Part shown: positions 2,088 through 33,399 of the stretch, piece by piece | Layout: each line of letters starts with the position of its first letter | Numbering within the stretch: the first letter of the stretch is position 1 | From: Parcubacteria group bacterium GW2011_GWA2_47_26 | Lineage (GTDB): Bacteria > Patescibacteriota > Patescibacteriia > GWA2-47-26 | Direction of reading: 5' to 3' | NCBI GenBank assembly: GCA_001001705.1 | Contig: LCOG01000009.1 | Location: 1-33,513, forward strand | DNA length: 33,513 bases | Notes under the pieces: model-generated | Told to the model about the DNA's origin: nothing | The model's database searches: none | Seen by the model: the letters and a program-made list of their open reading frames with translations, nothing else | Program-made: the position numbers and the translations under genes

Positions 2088-4619
2088 CTACAGTGTTTCC
2101 ATCTCTCCCCAATTTTTACCTTGCTTTATATCAACGACAATTGGAACTTTAAAAGAATGGATATTTTCCATGATAGATTTAATCTTTGGTGTAATCTCTG
2201 CCATTGCGCCCTCTTTCCCCTCAAACACCAATTCATCATGCACTTGCAACAACATCCGCACACCTGTGAACTGTGAACTGTCGACTGTGAACTGCTCGTA
2301 GAGCTTTGTCATCGCCATTTTCATGAGGTCAGCGCTAGTTCCTTGAATGGGCATATTTTGTGCCATGCGCTCGGCCGCGGCGCGCACTTGTTGCACTCCG
2401 GAATTAATCTCGGGCAAAAATCGGCGACGGCCAAAAAGCGTTTCCACATAACCGAGGATACGCGCCTTTTCTTTTAATCCTTCTAAATAATCATGCAAAG
2501 TACTGAACACTTCAAAATAGCGCTCAATAAATTGTTCGGCATCTTGCCGCGATAAACCGGTGCTTTGGGCGAGGCTTTTTGCGCCCATACCATAGACAAT
2601 GCCGAAGTTAATGGCTTTGGCATTGCGGCGCATTTCAGAAGTTATTTTATCTTCCGACTTTCCAAAAACGAGCGCAGCAGTTTTTGTATGAAAATCCTCC
2701 CCACTATTGAAAGCCTTGATCATCTGCGCGTCGCTTGAAAGCGAGGCGGCTATGCGCAGTTCAATTTGAGAATAATCCGCCGACAGCAGTTTAAACCCAC
2801 GTTCAGCAATAAAAGCTTTGCGGATTTGCCGCCCGGTCTTAGAACGAATAGGAATGTTTTGGAGATTGGGATTGGAAGAGGAAAGGCGGCCGGTCGCGGT
2901 TACGGCCTGATTAAAGGTGGTGCGGAGGCGGCCGTCTTTTTTATTAACCAAGGCGATTAGGGCATCGGTATAGGTAGATTGCAACTTCGCGAGTTCGCGG
3001 TATTCAAAAATCAAATCCACAATGGGATGACTGCCGCGCAATTTTTCAAGCTCTCCGGCAGCGGTAGAGGCGACACCGCCCTTAGCAGTTTTTTTTACTC
3101 GACCGGATACGGGCGCGAGTTTTAATTTATCAAACAGCATTTCGCGGAGCTGGGCCGGAGAGTTTATATTAAATTCTTGTCCGGAGCTCTCATGGATTTT
3201 TTTTGTCAACCGCGCGAGTTCTTTGCTAAATTCGTGAGACAGCTTTTTTAAATACGCGACATCAACTTTTATACCCCTTTCTTCCATGACAGCCAGCACT
3301 GGAATAAGCGGCATTTCAATATTCTCAAATACAAAATCAAGTTTTTCTTTTTTAAGCTCCTCGCGGAGAATGGAGACGAGTTGGTGCAAAACCGTGACCA
3401 AGTCACTTTTCGCCGTGACTTGGTCACGAAGATGTTCTTTTGTCACACTCTCAAAATCATGCGCCCTACTGCCGGGATGCAAAAGATAAGAAGCGATCAT
3501 GATGTCAAACAATTTTTCACCATTCCATTGTAAAGTTCCGTCGCGCAGGAGTTGTTTTAAATCGTGGCCGATAATAGTTCCATTTTGCCGCACATACGAT
3601 GTAGCGGCAGTCTTTAGGCTGCCATTGTCTTGTGGCGACCTCAAGGTCGCCGCTACGTTATTGCCGCCCAGCAACGAGGTTTGCTCTTTTTGCGCCAGCT
3701 CACGACCTGCGGCTACCTCTTCTTTATCCAGTCGCGCGAGCAAATTTTTAAACTCAAATTTTTCAAAAATCTCCCGTAATTTTTGAGTGTCCTGCGGCGG
3801 TATCTTGCAATCTGCAAGCGACACACTGATTGGCACATCGCGCACAAGTTGGACGAGTTTTTTGCCAAGCAAGGCGTCCTCTTTGTATGTACGTAAAAGC
3901 TCAATTGTCTTCGGCCTTACCTTTTTAATAACCTTATCGCCTGCTCTCTCGATCTCTTGGTATAGATCCTCTACATTCCCAAAATCCCTGATAAGCTCCG
4001 CGGCGGTTTTTTCTCCAATCCCCTTGACCCCCGGAATATTATCGGAAGGGTCGCCGCGCAAGGCCTTAAAATCAGTCATTTGCGCCGGAGAAAGTCCATA
4101 ACGCTCTTGCACTGCGGCTTCGTCATAAATAACCGTATCGGAAAATCCTTTGCGAAAGCTATATACTTTGGTACTTTTATCCACGAGCTGCAAAGTATCG
4201 AGGTCGCCCGTTACAATGACGGTTTCAATTGGCTGTGAGCTGTCGGCCGTGAACTCTGAACTCAATGTCGCAATCACATCATCGGCCTCCACTCCTTCTT
4301 TTTCAACCACGGGAATACCAAAAGCCTTGACTACTTGTTTTACTAAAGGTAGCTGATCGTAAAGCTCTTGAGGTTGTTTTATGCGAGTGGCCTTGTATTC
4401 TTTATACAACTCGTGCCGAAAAGTTGGCTTGGGCAAATCAAAAGTTACTGCGGCATAAGTTGGCTTTAGTTCTTTTAGAGCCTTGAGCAGGACAGTTGTA
4501 AAACCATACACCGCATTTACAATTTTCCCGTCTTTGGTGGAAAGCGAGGGCAAAGCATGAAAAGCCCGATGCACTAGGGCATTGCCGTCAATAATCATGA
4601 AACGGGGTTTGTTGTCCAT
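2088..4619 (-). CDS. polA: DNA polymerase I
   Basis: 5'-3' exonuclease motifs (MIIDGNALVHRAFHALP, GVEADDVIATL, GDPSDNIPGVKGIGEKTA) and polymerase motifs (LSADYSQIELRIAA, RRNAKAINFGIVYGMG, LLQVHDELVFE); start set at MDNKPRF. Confidence 0.95.
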   Translation of the reverse strand: MDNKPRFMIIDGNALVHRAFHALPSLSTKDGKIVNAVYGFTTVLLKALKELKPTYAAVTFDLPKPTFRHELYKEYKATRIKQPQELYDQLPLVKQVVKAFGIPVVEKEGVEADDVIATLSSEFTADSSQPIETVIVTGDLDTLQLVDKSTKVYSFRKGFSDTVIYDEAAVQERYGLSPAQMTDFKALRGDPSDNIPGVKGIGEKTAAELIRDFGNVEDLYQEIERAGDKVIKKVRPKTIELLRTYKEDALLGKKLVQLVRDVPISVSLADCKIPPQDTQKLREIFEKFEFKNLLARLDKEEVAAGRELAQKEQTSLLGGNNVAATLRSPQDNGSLKTAATSYVRQNGTIIGHDLKQLLRDGTLQWNGEKLFDIMIASYLLHPGSRAHDFESVTKEHLRDQVTAKSDLVTVLHQLVSILREELKKEKLDFVFENIEMPLIPVLAVMEERGIKVDVAYLKKLSHEFSKELARLTKKIHESSGQEFNINSPAQLREMLFDKLKLAPVSGRVKKTAKGGVASTAAGELEKLRGSHPIVDLIFEYRELAKLQSTYTDALIALVNKKDGRLRTTFNQAVTATGRLSSSNPNLQNIPIRSKTGRQIRKAFIAERGFKLLSADYSQIELRIAASLSSDAQMIKAFNSGEDFHTKTAALVFGKSEDKITSEMRRNAKAINFGIVYGMGAKSLAQSTGLSRQDAEQFIERYFEVFSTLHDYLEGLKEKARILGYVETLFGRRRFLPEINSGVQQVRAAAERMAQNMPIQGTSADLMKMAMTKLYEQFTVDSSQFTGVRMLLQVHDELVFEGKEGAMAEITPKIKSIMENIHSFKVPIVVDIKQGKNWGEMETL
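2264..2294. repeat. CTGTGAACTG tandem repeat inside polA
   Basis: ctgtgaactgtgaactgtcgactgtgaactg, encoding EQFTVDSSQFTG. Confidence 0.75.
3394..3427. repeat. Inverted repeat inside the polA coding frame
   Basis: GTGACCAAGTCAC-ttttcgcc-GTGACTTGGTCAC, perfect 13-bp arms; related copy in trxB at 32393-32435. Confidence 0.85.
3601..3656. repeat. GTAG...CTAC REP/BIME-like double-hairpin unit inside the polA coding frame
   Basis: GTAG-C-GGCAGtctttaggCTGCC-spacer-GGCGACCTCAAGGTCGCC-G-CTAC. Confidence 0.7.
4233..4262. repeat. Degenerate CTGTGAACT-type tandem repeat inside polA
   Basis: ctgtgagctgtcggccgtgaactctgaact, encoding SSEFTADSSQ; related to 2264-2294. Confidence 0.55.
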
Positions 4620-4645
4620 ATACGCTTGTCCACATAATAGCACAT

Positions 4646-4702
4646 GTAGCCGCAAGCTTCAGCTTGCATACCTTGCAACGCCTGCTAAAGACCGGCGACT
4701 AC
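4646..4702. repeat. GTAG...CTAC-bounded hairpin element upstream of polA
   Basis: GTAGCCGCAAGCTTCAGCTTGC...CCGGCGACTAC; GCAAGCT/AGCTTGC stem. Confidence 0.5.
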
Positions 4703-4796: not shown

Positions 4797-5918
4797 CTAG
4801 ATCGTCGGGGTGGCGGAGGTCCAGCCCTGGCCGGACCGGAGCGGGCGGATGCCGCACAGGTTGACCGAGGTGCCGATCGCCGAGGCCGACTCCTCCGCGC
4901 TGTCGCGGATGGTCGCCTGGAACGTGATCGACCCGTCCTGGCCCAGCACCATGGTGAAGTGCGGGACGTAGCCCCGCATGTTGCCCACGATCCTGGCCAC
5001 CTTGTCGGTCGCCAGACCCGCGAAGCTCGCCTTGCGCTCGGTCTGGTCGCCCGCGACGTAGTCGCCGAGCATGTGGCGCGCGACCGCGAACCAGGCCGCC
5101 ATGTTGACACCGGTGGGGGCGCCGTGCAGCTGCGCCTGGTTGCTGCGGACCCGGTTCTCGGCGGAGATGACGATCGTGCGGTTGACGACCACGTTGCCCG
5201 AGGTCGCGATCTGCGTCTTGAGCAGGTCGATGACCGCCGGCCGGAGCTTGGCGTCCACCCCGCGCAGGGCCTTCCAGGCCTGCTCGTTGGCGAACACCGG
5301 GGTGACGTCGGTCAGCTCTCCGCGCAGTGCCGCGATGTGCGGGAACTCGATCCCGTCGCAGCAGCGCTGGATCGTCCGGAAGGCCTCGAGGGCCTGCCGG
5401 TTGATCTCGGCCTTGGTCGACGACTGCTCGCCGCCCCGGGTCTTCGCGCCGAAATCCGACGCGAACGCGTCCGACTCGACGAGCTTGCCCGCGGCGTTGA
5501 GCACCTTGTACGCCGGCCGCAGGATCGCGATCACGGTCCGGGCGTACTCGTTGAAGGGCGTGACGTCCGTCGGCGGGATCACGATCCCGGCGAGGACGTA
5601 CTCGATCGCCACGGTCAGGGCCTGGGCCTTGTTCAGGTCCAGCGCCAGGGCCTCGTCCGCGAAGTACGCGACGAGCGAGGCCAGGTCGGCCACGAACTCC
5701 TGGCCGGCGATCTCGGCCTTGGCGCCGAAGCGCTCCTGGAGGAAGCCCTTGTGGTCGGCCGGCACCGTGATCGCGCCCTGCGGCAAGTAGCCGCCGAAGG
5801 GCTTGACCCGCATGCCGTCGGGCACCCGGGCACTGGTCATGGCCTCGGTCTGCAGGGCGATGGCGACCCGCGAGAGGTCGTAGGTGCTGGGACGGGAGGG
5901 ATTGCCGTTCGTGCCCAT
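4797..5918 (-). CDS. GC-rich orphan protein (373 aa), no recognised family
   Basis: Long ORF with strongly C/G-ending codons; AGGAG 10 nt upstream of ATG 5918 (MGTNGNPSRPSTYDL...); terminator downstream. Confidence 0.75.
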   Translation of the reverse strand: MGTNGNPSRPSTYDLSRVAIALQTEAMTSARVPDGMRVKPFGGYLPQGAITVPADHKGFLQERFGAKAEIAGQEFVADLASLVAYFADEALALDLNKAQALTVAIEYVLAGIVIPPTDVTPFNEYARTVIAILRPAYKVLNAAGKLVESDAFASDFGAKTRGGEQSSTKAEINRQALEAFRTIQRCCDGIEFPHIAALRGELTDVTPVFANEQAWKALRGVDAKLRPAVIDLLKTQIATSGNVVVNRTIVISAENRVRSNQAQLHGAPTGVNMAAWFAVARHMLGDYVAGDQTERKASFAGLATDKVARIVGNMRGYVPHFTMVLGQDGSITFQATIRDSAEESASAIGTSVNLCGIRPLRSGQGWTSATPTI

Positions 5919-6139
5919 GGGTGTTTGTCTCCTGGTTGCCCTCGTCATGAGGGGCTTGAGTTGCCGCTCTTGTCCCGGAAGAAAATAGATTGCTCCTTTC
6001 TCCGTAGGGACAAACGGACTCGCGCGGGTATAGGGCGCACCCGCGGGGCGGACTGGAAAGAGCGGCTTGCCCTAACTTGAAATCTCATAAAAGATCTCAA
6101 GCCAGAGCAAATCAATTTCCCAAATTTTTCCAAACTGAA

Positions 6140-22981: not shown

Positions 22982-23143
22982 TATAATAATAAAAGGACCA
23001 GCCCCTCCTTTTCCTCCGTCAGCGTATCAACGCATGCAACTCGTCCCGCAATTCTCGCGATCGCGTCAATCACGGGACGACTAAAGGTGGACTCTAAACA
23101 ATCAACTACGCGCGGCCACGCGTAGTTGATTGTTTATCTTTTT
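22982..23143 (+). ncRNA. Candidate small RNA: TATAAT -10 to strong hairpin plus T-tract
   Basis: TTGTCA-N16-TATAAT (22960-22987); 17-bp perfect stem AAACAATCAACTACGCG-CGGCCA-CGCGTAGTTGATTGTTT (23096-23135) followed by ATCTTTTTT; no ORF. Confidence 0.4.
23041..23080. repeat. 40-bp GATC-centred palindrome
   Basis: TCGTCCCGCAATTCTCGCGATCGCGTCAATCACGGGACGA; same architecture as 33352-33399. Confidence 0.8.
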
Positions 23144-28878: not shown

Positions 28879-28922
28879 CAAGGCTAAGCCTTGGTGGAGG
28901 GCGATCCCAAGGCTTAGCCTTG
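28879..28922. repeat. Perfect 16-bp inverted repeat
   Basis: CAAGGCTAAGCCTTGG-TGGAGGGCGATC-CCAAGGCTTAGCCTTG. Confidence 0.85.
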
Positions 28923-28932
28923 TTGCAATAAG

Positions 28933-29364
28933 AAAAGGCTGGGAATGGAACAGCAGACCGCGAAGCGGAAAGATTGAGGAGAGAGATACTCGTCTTGGGA
29001 AGTTCCCCCATAAAAATGGGAGGCTTCCATACCGACGAGGAATCTTTCCGCTGGTGGTCTTTGGGAACTGTTGCAGTCCCCAAGAATTCATCTTAAGGGC
29101 CTGTTGCCAAATACCATTTCTACTGCAATGTCCAGATTTCGGCTGCGGCTTTGCAGAAATGTCTCGACAGATACTGCGTATATGCCTTACGGGACTGTTG
29201 CCGAATATCCATTTTGGCCATTTCTTCCCAAATACGGCTGCGACTCGTTGAAAATTACTCGAAATAGCTCTGCTATTCCTGCGTCATTTCGTTACGAAAG
29301 CGTATTCGGCAACAGGCCCCTTAAAGCGCGTGCTTTAGATGTGCTGTTCCATTCCCAGCCTTTT
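28933..29364. repeat. Large compound foldback element bounded by 23-bp perfect inverted repeats
   Basis: AAAAGGCTGGGAATGGAACAGCA (28933-28955) / TGCTGTTCCATTCCCAGCCTTTT (29342-29364), with other palindromes nested inside. Confidence 0.8.
29191..29319. repeat. Full-length MITE-like element, TGTTGCCGAATA family
   Basis: GGGACTGTTGCCGAATA ... TATTCGGCAACAGGCCC; left 94 bp match 1957-2050. Confidence 0.85.
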
Positions 29365-32127: not shown

Positions 32128-33216
32128 ATGGAAAAGGTGATTATTATTGGCAGCGGCCCGGCTGGTTATACGGCGGCAATATATACCGCGCGAGCAAACC
32201 TCGCGCCGGTTTTATTTGAAGGAGCGGAGCCGGGAGGACAATTGACTACGACATCCGAGGTGGAGAACTTTCCGGGTTTTGCCAAAGGGGTGAGGGGGCC
32301 AGAGATGATGGCGATTTTTAAAGAGCAAGCGGAACGTTTTGGTACGCGGGTGGTGGCGAAGGCGGTAACGGCGGTTGATTTTAGCGGCAGAAGTGACCAA
32401 GCCACTGCCGCAGGCGCAACCCGTGGCTTGGTCACGAGGAGCCGCATTTTTGAGGTTTTTTGCGAAGGGGAACTATATGAGTCTCGTGCGGTCATTATTG
32501 CCACTGGCGCTTCGGCTAAGCGTTTAGGTCTCCCGAATGAAAAGAAATTATATGGCAAGGGGGTTTCGGCTTGCGCAACCTGTGACGGGTTCTTTTTTAA
32601 AGACAAAGTTGTGGCAGTAGTTGGCGGCGGGGATACGGCAATGGAGGAGGCGAATTTTTTAACAAAATTTGCAAAAAGAGTTTATGTAGTACATCGGCGC
32701 GCAGAATTTCGCGCCTCGCCAATCATGCTTGAGCGCGCTCGCAATAATCCGAAGATTGAATTTATCATGAATACGGTGGTGGAAGACATCTTGGGAGTGG
32801 ATGAGGGGCGTGTGACAGGGGTGAGGCTCAAAAATGTAGGGCAGGGGCTTGTCCCCGGCCGCGGCGGGGCACCCGCCTCTCCCGCCGACGGTCGACCATT
32901 CGGTTCTGTGGCACCAGCAGACTCGGCGGGCAGGCAAGGCCCCGCCCTACCATCATTTCAGGATGACAAACGGGTATTGCTTTGCGATGGGGTTTTCGCG
33001 GCGATTGGCCATGAGCCTAATACGAAATTGTTTGCGGGTCAGCTTGAACTGGATCAGAAAGGATATATTGTAACGCGGCAAGGTTCGACCATGACTTCAA
33101 TTGAAGGGGTGTTTGCGGCGGGGGACTGCGCTGATTATAAATATCGGCAAGCTGTTGTTGCCGCGGGCGCGGGTTGCATGGCGGCGATTGATGCAGAGCG
33201 TTGGCTAGAGGAGTGA
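32128..33216 (+). CDS. trxB: Thioredoxin reductase
   Basis: IIGSGPAGYTAAIYTARANL, CATCDGFFFKDKVVAVVGGGDTAMEEA, VFAAGDCADYKYRQAVVAAGAGCMAA. Confidence 0.96.
   Translation: MEKVIIIGSGPAGYTAAIYTARANLAPVLFEGAEPGGQLTTTSEVENFPGFAKGVRGPEMMAIFKEQAERFGTRVVAKAVTAVDFSGRSDQATAAGATRGLVTRSRIFEVFCEGELYESRAVIIATGASAKRLGLPNEKKLYGKGVSACATCDGFFFKDKVVAVVGGGDTAMEEANFLTKFAKRVYVVHRRAEFRASPIMLERARNNPKIEFIMNTVVEDILGVDEGRVTGVRLKNVGQGLVPGRGGAPASPADGRPFGSVAPADSAGRQGPALPSFQDDKRVLLCDGVFAAIGHEPNTKLFAGQLELDQKGYIVTRQGSTMTSIEGVFAAGDCADYKYRQAVVAAGAGCMAAIDAERWLEE
32393..32435. repeat. Inverted repeat inside the trxB coding frame
   Basis: GTGACCAAGCCAC-N17-GTGGCTTGGTCAC, perfect 13-bp arms; related to the polA copy at 3394-3427. 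Confidence 0.85.
32836..32950. repeat. GTAG...CTAC GC-rich palindromic element inside the trxB coding frame
   Basis: GTAGGGCAGGGGCTTGTCCCC ... CGGCGGGCAGGCAAGGCCCCGCCCTAC; inner CCCGCCGA/TCGGCGGG. Confidence 0.75.
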
Positions 33217-33351: not shown

Positions 33352-33399
33352 CTACTCGTCCCGCATTTAGCTCGATCGCGCTAAACACGGGACGAGTAG
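33352..33399. repeat. 48-bp GATC-centred palindrome downstream of trxB
   Basis: CTACTCGTCCCGCATTTAGCTCGATCGCGCTAAACACGGGACGAGTAG. Confidence 0.85.

Follow-up and report, generated by a model that had tools for sequence, protein, structure and literature searches.

Short in-frame hairpins in polA and trxB of an uncultured Uhrbacteria genome, best read as a coding-compatible, RAYT-linked REP-like element

Hairpins in polA and trxB

The window, i.e. the whole stretch of 33,513 nucleotides that was analysed, is contig C9 of an uncultured Uhrbacteria genome (G000; assembly of 842 kb, ~80% complete). Two of its genes each contain a short palindrome. The first (type A with a gap of 8 nt, positions 3394-3427, minus strand) reads GTGACCAAGTCAC-GGCGAAAA-GTGACTTGGTCAC on the minus strand and lies inside polA (2088-4655, minus), the product of which, DNA polymerase I, matches Taq polymerase with an E-value of 1.6e-175. 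The second (type A with a gap of 17 nt, positions 32393-32435, plus strand) reads GTGACCAAGCCAC-TGCCGCAGGCGCAACCC-GTGGCTTGGTCAC and lies inside trxB (32128-33216, plus), which encodes thioredoxin reductase according to its PDB homologues. As the first-pass annotation had claimed, the arms of both are perfect over 13 bp (13/13; in polA 14/14 when one flanking base per side is added), and the one arm position that differs between them is compensated (T/A to C/G, with the partner arm changed too). The peptides are also those claimed, namely RDQVTAKSDLVT in PolA, where the copy encodes (R)DQVTAKSDLVT, and SDQATAAGATRGLVT in TrxB. At up to two mismatches the window contains exactly these four arms, compared to a mean of 0.62 (and never four) in 100 shuffles. 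The polA hairpin folds into a stem of 14-15 bp (z = -5.0), and the trxB hairpin, folded as RNA, reaches z = -5.1.

Several other features were observed in the window. At 28880-28921, in a repeat-rich and probably intergenic stretch, lies a related hairpin with arms of a different family (AAGGCTAAGCCTT-N16-AAGGCTTAGCCTT). A 100-bp repeat containing AATACGGCTGCGACTCGTTGAAAATTACTCG occurs at 1957-2056 and 29191-29290 (98% identical), and two further palindromic repeats, CTCGTCCCG...CGGGACGAG (23039-23083 and 33354-33398) and TGGTTCAGATTCC...GATCG... (469-506 and 1175-1212), are apparently intergenic. The stretch at 4797-5948 (minus) has a GC content of 67-70%, against ~46-55% in the nearby genome, with ORFs overlapping on both strands, including one of 383 aa without a Pfam match; it is possibly foreign DNA. 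An Rfam search of the window gave three tRNAs and nothing else.

A dispersed family of in-frame hairpins

The genome search for further copies that the first-pass annotation had proposed was productive: the arm GTGACCAAGNCAC occurs 38 times at up to one mismatch in the 842-kb genome, compared to 2 times for the reversed control. Paired hairpins (GTGRC...GYCAC, searched as GTGRC-NNN-GYCAC) number 23 in the 339 kb covered by the census (contigs C2, C5, C8, C9, C13, C23 and part of C10), of which 17 are in-frame parts of long ORFs, with unit lengths of 34, 35 or 43 bp. The in-frame carriers are IscS, a coiled-coil protein, RecG, a DsbA-like protein (two copies), PheT, the transposase RAYT, MetRS, LeuRS, PolA, TrxB, UGD, UvrC, two family-2-like and one family-4-like glycosyltransferases, and an 885-aa ORF of no named family (for PolA, TrxB, MetRS, LeuRS, IscS and UGD the identity comes from PDB matches, for the others from reading the sequence). 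Other arm families also occur in this genome, among them AAAGCTGAGCTTT (in AtpG and UGD) and AAGGCTAAGCCTT. In a relative from the same family but another genus (Ca. Uhrbacteria RIFCSPHIGHO2_02_FULL_46_47, listed as both G001 and G057), 31 elements were found in 432 kb, 25 of them in ORFs. Shuffled DNA yields ~0 elements, whereas the real sequences yield 18-31. The CCAAG pattern, taken exactly, gave no match in the 56 other genomes of the search for relatives, because the arms in G001 are CCTGG/CCAGG; a collection of viral contigs also gave no match to the hairpin. Matches in Clostridia (L037-L040) were judged convergent, as only the palindrome GTGACCWGGTCAC is in common.

The pairing between the two arms is conserved: 342 of 351 inter-arm pairs (97%) in 27 copies are Watson-Crick, and stem pairs 4 and 6 vary yet are paired in all 27 (pair 10, also variable, in 23). 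The compensated position in the window is thus part of a wider pattern of covariation. Within a single arm, pairing is not maintained: 18 of 54 arms have a mismatch at pair 4-10. Since pairing holds between the arms and breaks within them, the unit is a single hairpin, which rules out a REPIN model of two separate inverted REP hairpins. The 17-nt loop of the trxB copy, TGCCGCAGGCGCAACCC, is identical in the IscS copy and in copies of G001, i.e. in unrelated genes of two genera. In G001 it is enclosed by GTGACC, GTGGCC or AAAGCTGAGCTTC arms, and in G000 by arms of the GTGAC type or by degenerate AAGCTAAGCT arms, so that the arms appear to have been swapped or rewritten while the loop was kept; gene conversion between families would be a guess at how. 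The sequences next to 18 in-frame copies and to 8 sites of non-coding type contain no GTAG/CGTC tag, and no common tag was seen. No target-site duplication is visible in the flanks either, and the empty sites are too diverged to place the element ends at base level.

The earlier claim that both window copies are read in the same phase is true, although much of this pattern is survivorship, as stop-free frames exist only in some phases. Where CTAG arms enclose an 8-nt gap, every frame contains a stop, and 4 out of 4 such copies are intergenic. With a 9-nt gap one frame per strand is open (with the exception of C8:35963, which is intergenic); four such copies are in genes in the open frame, and another supplies both the 3' end and the TAG stop of the RAYT gene. 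When the arms are CCAAG, CCATG or CCAGG, two or more frames are open over both strands (usually four), and yet all 13 such copies are in genes in the identical phase, though a second phase is mostly open. This agreement exceeds what the stop-codon filter accounts for.

Comparison with orthologues gives several clean empty sites. The TrxB segment (15-18 aa relative to orthologues) is missing from the PDB homologues and from 10 relatives of the class. In PolA, the loop that holds the copy belongs to the degenerate 3'-5' exonuclease region and varies in length; it is longer by just 6 aa than in G001 and by 2 aa than in G002 (a second relative from the same family). PolA is therefore the weakest example of insertion in these alignments, and alone it would not prove one. 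The DsbA-like protein has a clean insert of 12 aa (DPAGRDQATTESDLVTAIAIVEFG in G000, DPNAELAIVEFG in G001 and DQSAE-ITIVEFG in G002), the UGD insert of 13 aa is missing in orthologues, and the LeuRS site is empty in G002 and holds a different repeat in G001. Reciprocally, elements of G001 in UvrD, a GT2, a P-type ATPase and the protein at L102 14523 are missing from the orthologues in G000 or G002. The alignments place the inserts between conserved blocks; a single-sequence structure model of TrxB had a mean pLDDT of 35 and was unusable. No distant orthologue was found to contain the peptide without the palindrome. With many in-frame copies, insert-free orthologues and compensated arms, the view of a mobile palindrome that remains translatable within essential proteins has held up.

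At nine of ~15 sites in G000 (TrxB, IscS, MetRS, AtpG, LeuRS, UvrC, GT4, DsbA-like site 1 and RAYT), the corresponding loop of a relative from the same family is occupied by a different repeat. In TrxB these are other in-frame repeats, of the PSPQPSPIKGEG...GGVRGG type, in exactly the same loop of both G001 and G002. The alternative occupant at DsbA-like site 1 and in RAYT is another RAYT-type hairpin, which is probably also the case in UvrC.

In-frame repeats are not limited to these hairpins. TrxB has a second, unrelated one at 32833-32961 (plus; GQGLVPGRGGAPASPADG...LPS, translated GQGLVPGRGG...LPS), with an 86% copy at G000:C17:10128-10256; its site is empty in most relatives and holds other repeats in G001 and in genome G019. 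Further families are of the ERSEGS...QND, KGTASNFAAQNLEVVPFS and NPPQPSLTLREG...PLRVRGG types, and genes with other repeat families include RecG, PheT, AtpG, UvrC, LigA and LeuRS of G000 and many genes of G002 (L213-L230). Repeats of the ERSEGS and KGTASNF types occupy the same loops as the hairpins. The LeuRS on contig C13 (an ORF of 1072 aa) also has a ~200-aa alpha/beta-hydrolase-like segment (KVLLIHGFEGSAESNWFPW...) in the middle of the protein, which Thermus LeuRS does not have.

Association with REP-type transposase genes

The G000 genome contains one Y1_Tnp (PF01797) gene (match at C5:68139-68363), with an HUH motif (HFH) and a tyrosine motif (RYIHLN), the best NCBIfam match of which is the REP-associated tyrosine transposase (RAYT), under the cut-off; solved structures gave no match by sequence. 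This gene carries a hairpin element in frame. The gene is preceded by a truncated hairpin of the GTGGCTAGGCCAC type, and a complete hairpin at the 3' end provides the TAG stop. The protein is without an N-terminal part relative to those of G001 and may therefore be inactive, while another RAYT may be missing from the data because the assembly is only ~80% complete. A piece related to the 100-bp repeat of the window lies upstream (C5, ~67890-67970) and seems to replace the start of the gene.

In G001, RAYT1 (67% identical to that of G000) has CAGGGCTAAGCCCT hairpins on both sides, with spacers that are mutually reverse-complementary, and RAYT2 has GAAGCTGAGCTTC hairpins inside the gene and behind its 3' end. 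The two arm families are also found in frame in further genes of that genome. In G002, RAYT is absent and the short hairpins are almost absent; its own longer palindromic family, NPPQPSLTLREG, has all 9 copies in frame without a RAYT. The correlation between RAYT and hairpins within the family covers these three genomes.

This RAYT type is present in 56 of 381 genomes of the class. About 9 of 28 RAYT loci in other genomes have matching hairpins at both gene ends, or at one end and inside, and the sequences of these hairpins differ from genome to genome. These genomes have few matching hairpins, most of which lie outside genes (in the stretches read of G010, G017, G319, G267, G050, G296, G202, G330, G307 and G004, in-frame copies were few or zero), and RAYT alone therefore does not explain the insertion into coding sequence.

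A probable coding-compatible REP-like element

Following these results, both palindromes are read as copies of a short (34-43 bp), non-autonomous, mobile REP-like hairpin linked to RAYT in Uhrbacteria, with a probability of roughly two in three. The role of RAYT is inferred from its linkage to the hairpins and their matching arms, and mobility from the distribution of copies. RAYT would recognise the folded single strand, cut it, and then copy or move the hairpin to new sites. Copies that break genes would be lost, leaving those that are intergenic or in loops tolerating ~12-15 extra residues. The CCAAG/CCATG arms would represent the coding-compatible form, as without the TAG of the CTAG arms extra frames are open. 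The encoded peptide is probably tolerated rather than useful. More tentatively, and at somewhat less than even odds, a REP/RAYT system may here have evolved a coding-compatible hairpin, in which one arm lost its stop codons and the other changed to match, and which lives mainly as in-frame inserts of housekeeping proteins.

It is conceivable, though rather unlikely, that the hairpins spread without RAYT (through recombination, template switching during replication, or another enzyme), as is assumed for the Rickettsia elements, which have no known transposase, and that those beside the RAYT genes are simply additional insertions. The G002 palindromes are in frame in a genome without RAYT, the ERSEGS- and KGTASNF-type repeats use the same loops, and the RAYT of G000 looks truncated, all of which would fit such a spread. 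However, in about ten genomes the arms at the start and end of the RAYT gene match each other while differing between genomes, and where this RAYT type is missing there are almost no short hairpins. Selection for a function as RNA or DNA structure (i.e. in translation pausing, mRNA stability or transcription control), rather than selfish spread, would be in line with the very stable folds (z of about -5), the compensated changes that keep the stem paired, and the terminator-like look of the intergenic copies. A functional structure should hold its position, whereas the insertion sites differ between genera even in orthologous genes, with other repeats or nothing there, which makes this explanation very improbable. 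Finally, that the peptides are old, ordinary linkers, palindromic by chance or codon bias, fits only the length-variable PolA loop (2-6 aa off its relatives) and is refuted by the dispersed copies (~0 in shuffled DNA), the identical 17-nt loop in unrelated genes of two genera, and the clean empty sites.

The RAYT-linked hairpin resembles the palindromic elements of Rickettsia (RPE-1 to RPE-10) and Wolbachia (WPE), in that in-frame palindromes occur in unrelated housekeeping genes that remain unbroken, with several families per genome. The Rickettsia palindromic element unit is 100-150 bp. The first-pass annotation had called such a palindrome the hallmark of Rickettsia elements, which seems right for the behaviour but not for membership: the unit here is 34-43 bp and the phylum is another one. 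Different element groups at the same or a nearby site in orthologues, as seen here, have been described for R. japonica (PMC3767692). For the CGTC repeats, including RPE-4 and RPE-6, no dedicated transposase was found (Di Nocera et al., PMC3733652), whereas here a linked transposase gene is present.

As in REP/RAYT systems (REPtrons, GTAG REPs), short hairpins of a matching arm family flank a single-copy HUH tyrosine transposase gene, and the terminal hairpin of GTAG REPs likewise gives the TAG stop of the adjacent ORF (PMC3733652). Unlike those REPs, the elements here have no GTAG/CGTC tag and a lower copy number, lie mostly within genes in frame (17/23 and 25/31) rather than extragenically, and may keep the loop while the arms differ. 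With REPINs and BIMEs they share two near-palindromic inverted halves around a variable spacer, but in the present elements it is the pairing of one arm with the other that is conserved. Intragenic in-frame REPs are known from O. terrae, R. conorii, Thauera and others (Di Nocera et al. 2013, PMC3733652), where they hit DNA repair genes, DNA polymerase I and tRNA synthetases, and two Xanthomonas recB genes have REPs at about the same site. Most REPs in that survey are intergenic, whereas in-frame copies form the majority here. The likeness to the Rickettsia and Wolbachia palindromes and to the intragenic REPs (PMC3733652, PMC3767692, PMC10969869) thus appears to be one of way of working; the size that defines the former, and the tag and extragenic position that define REPs, are not found here. 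All in all, the behaviour is that of Rickettsia palindromic elements, but the best reading is a REP-like element that is linked to RAYT and has a coding-compatible form. Such hairpins were not found reported for Patescibacteria among open-licence papers, in agreement with the expectation that no equivalent had been described for this kind of genome.

Protein-coding palindromes were reportedly described in Rickettsia in 2000 and in Wolbachia in 2005. In a different phylum, in-frame palindromes, some with clean empty sites, here co-occur with REP-type transposase genes that have the same arms, which suggests a cause for protein-coding palindromes. The mechanism can therefore be put to a direct test, for which small proteins and synthetic hairpins suffice. 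If a REP/RAYT system has indeed evolved such a coding-compatible hairpin, this would explain the origin of protein-coding palindromes, and the swapping of arms around a conserved loop would let the element change its RAYT specificity. For Patescibacteria the data mean that organisms with small genomes add short peptides to core enzymes, with different repeats hitting the same loops across genera, and that lineage-specific inserts of 12-15 residues should be expected in annotation and structure prediction.
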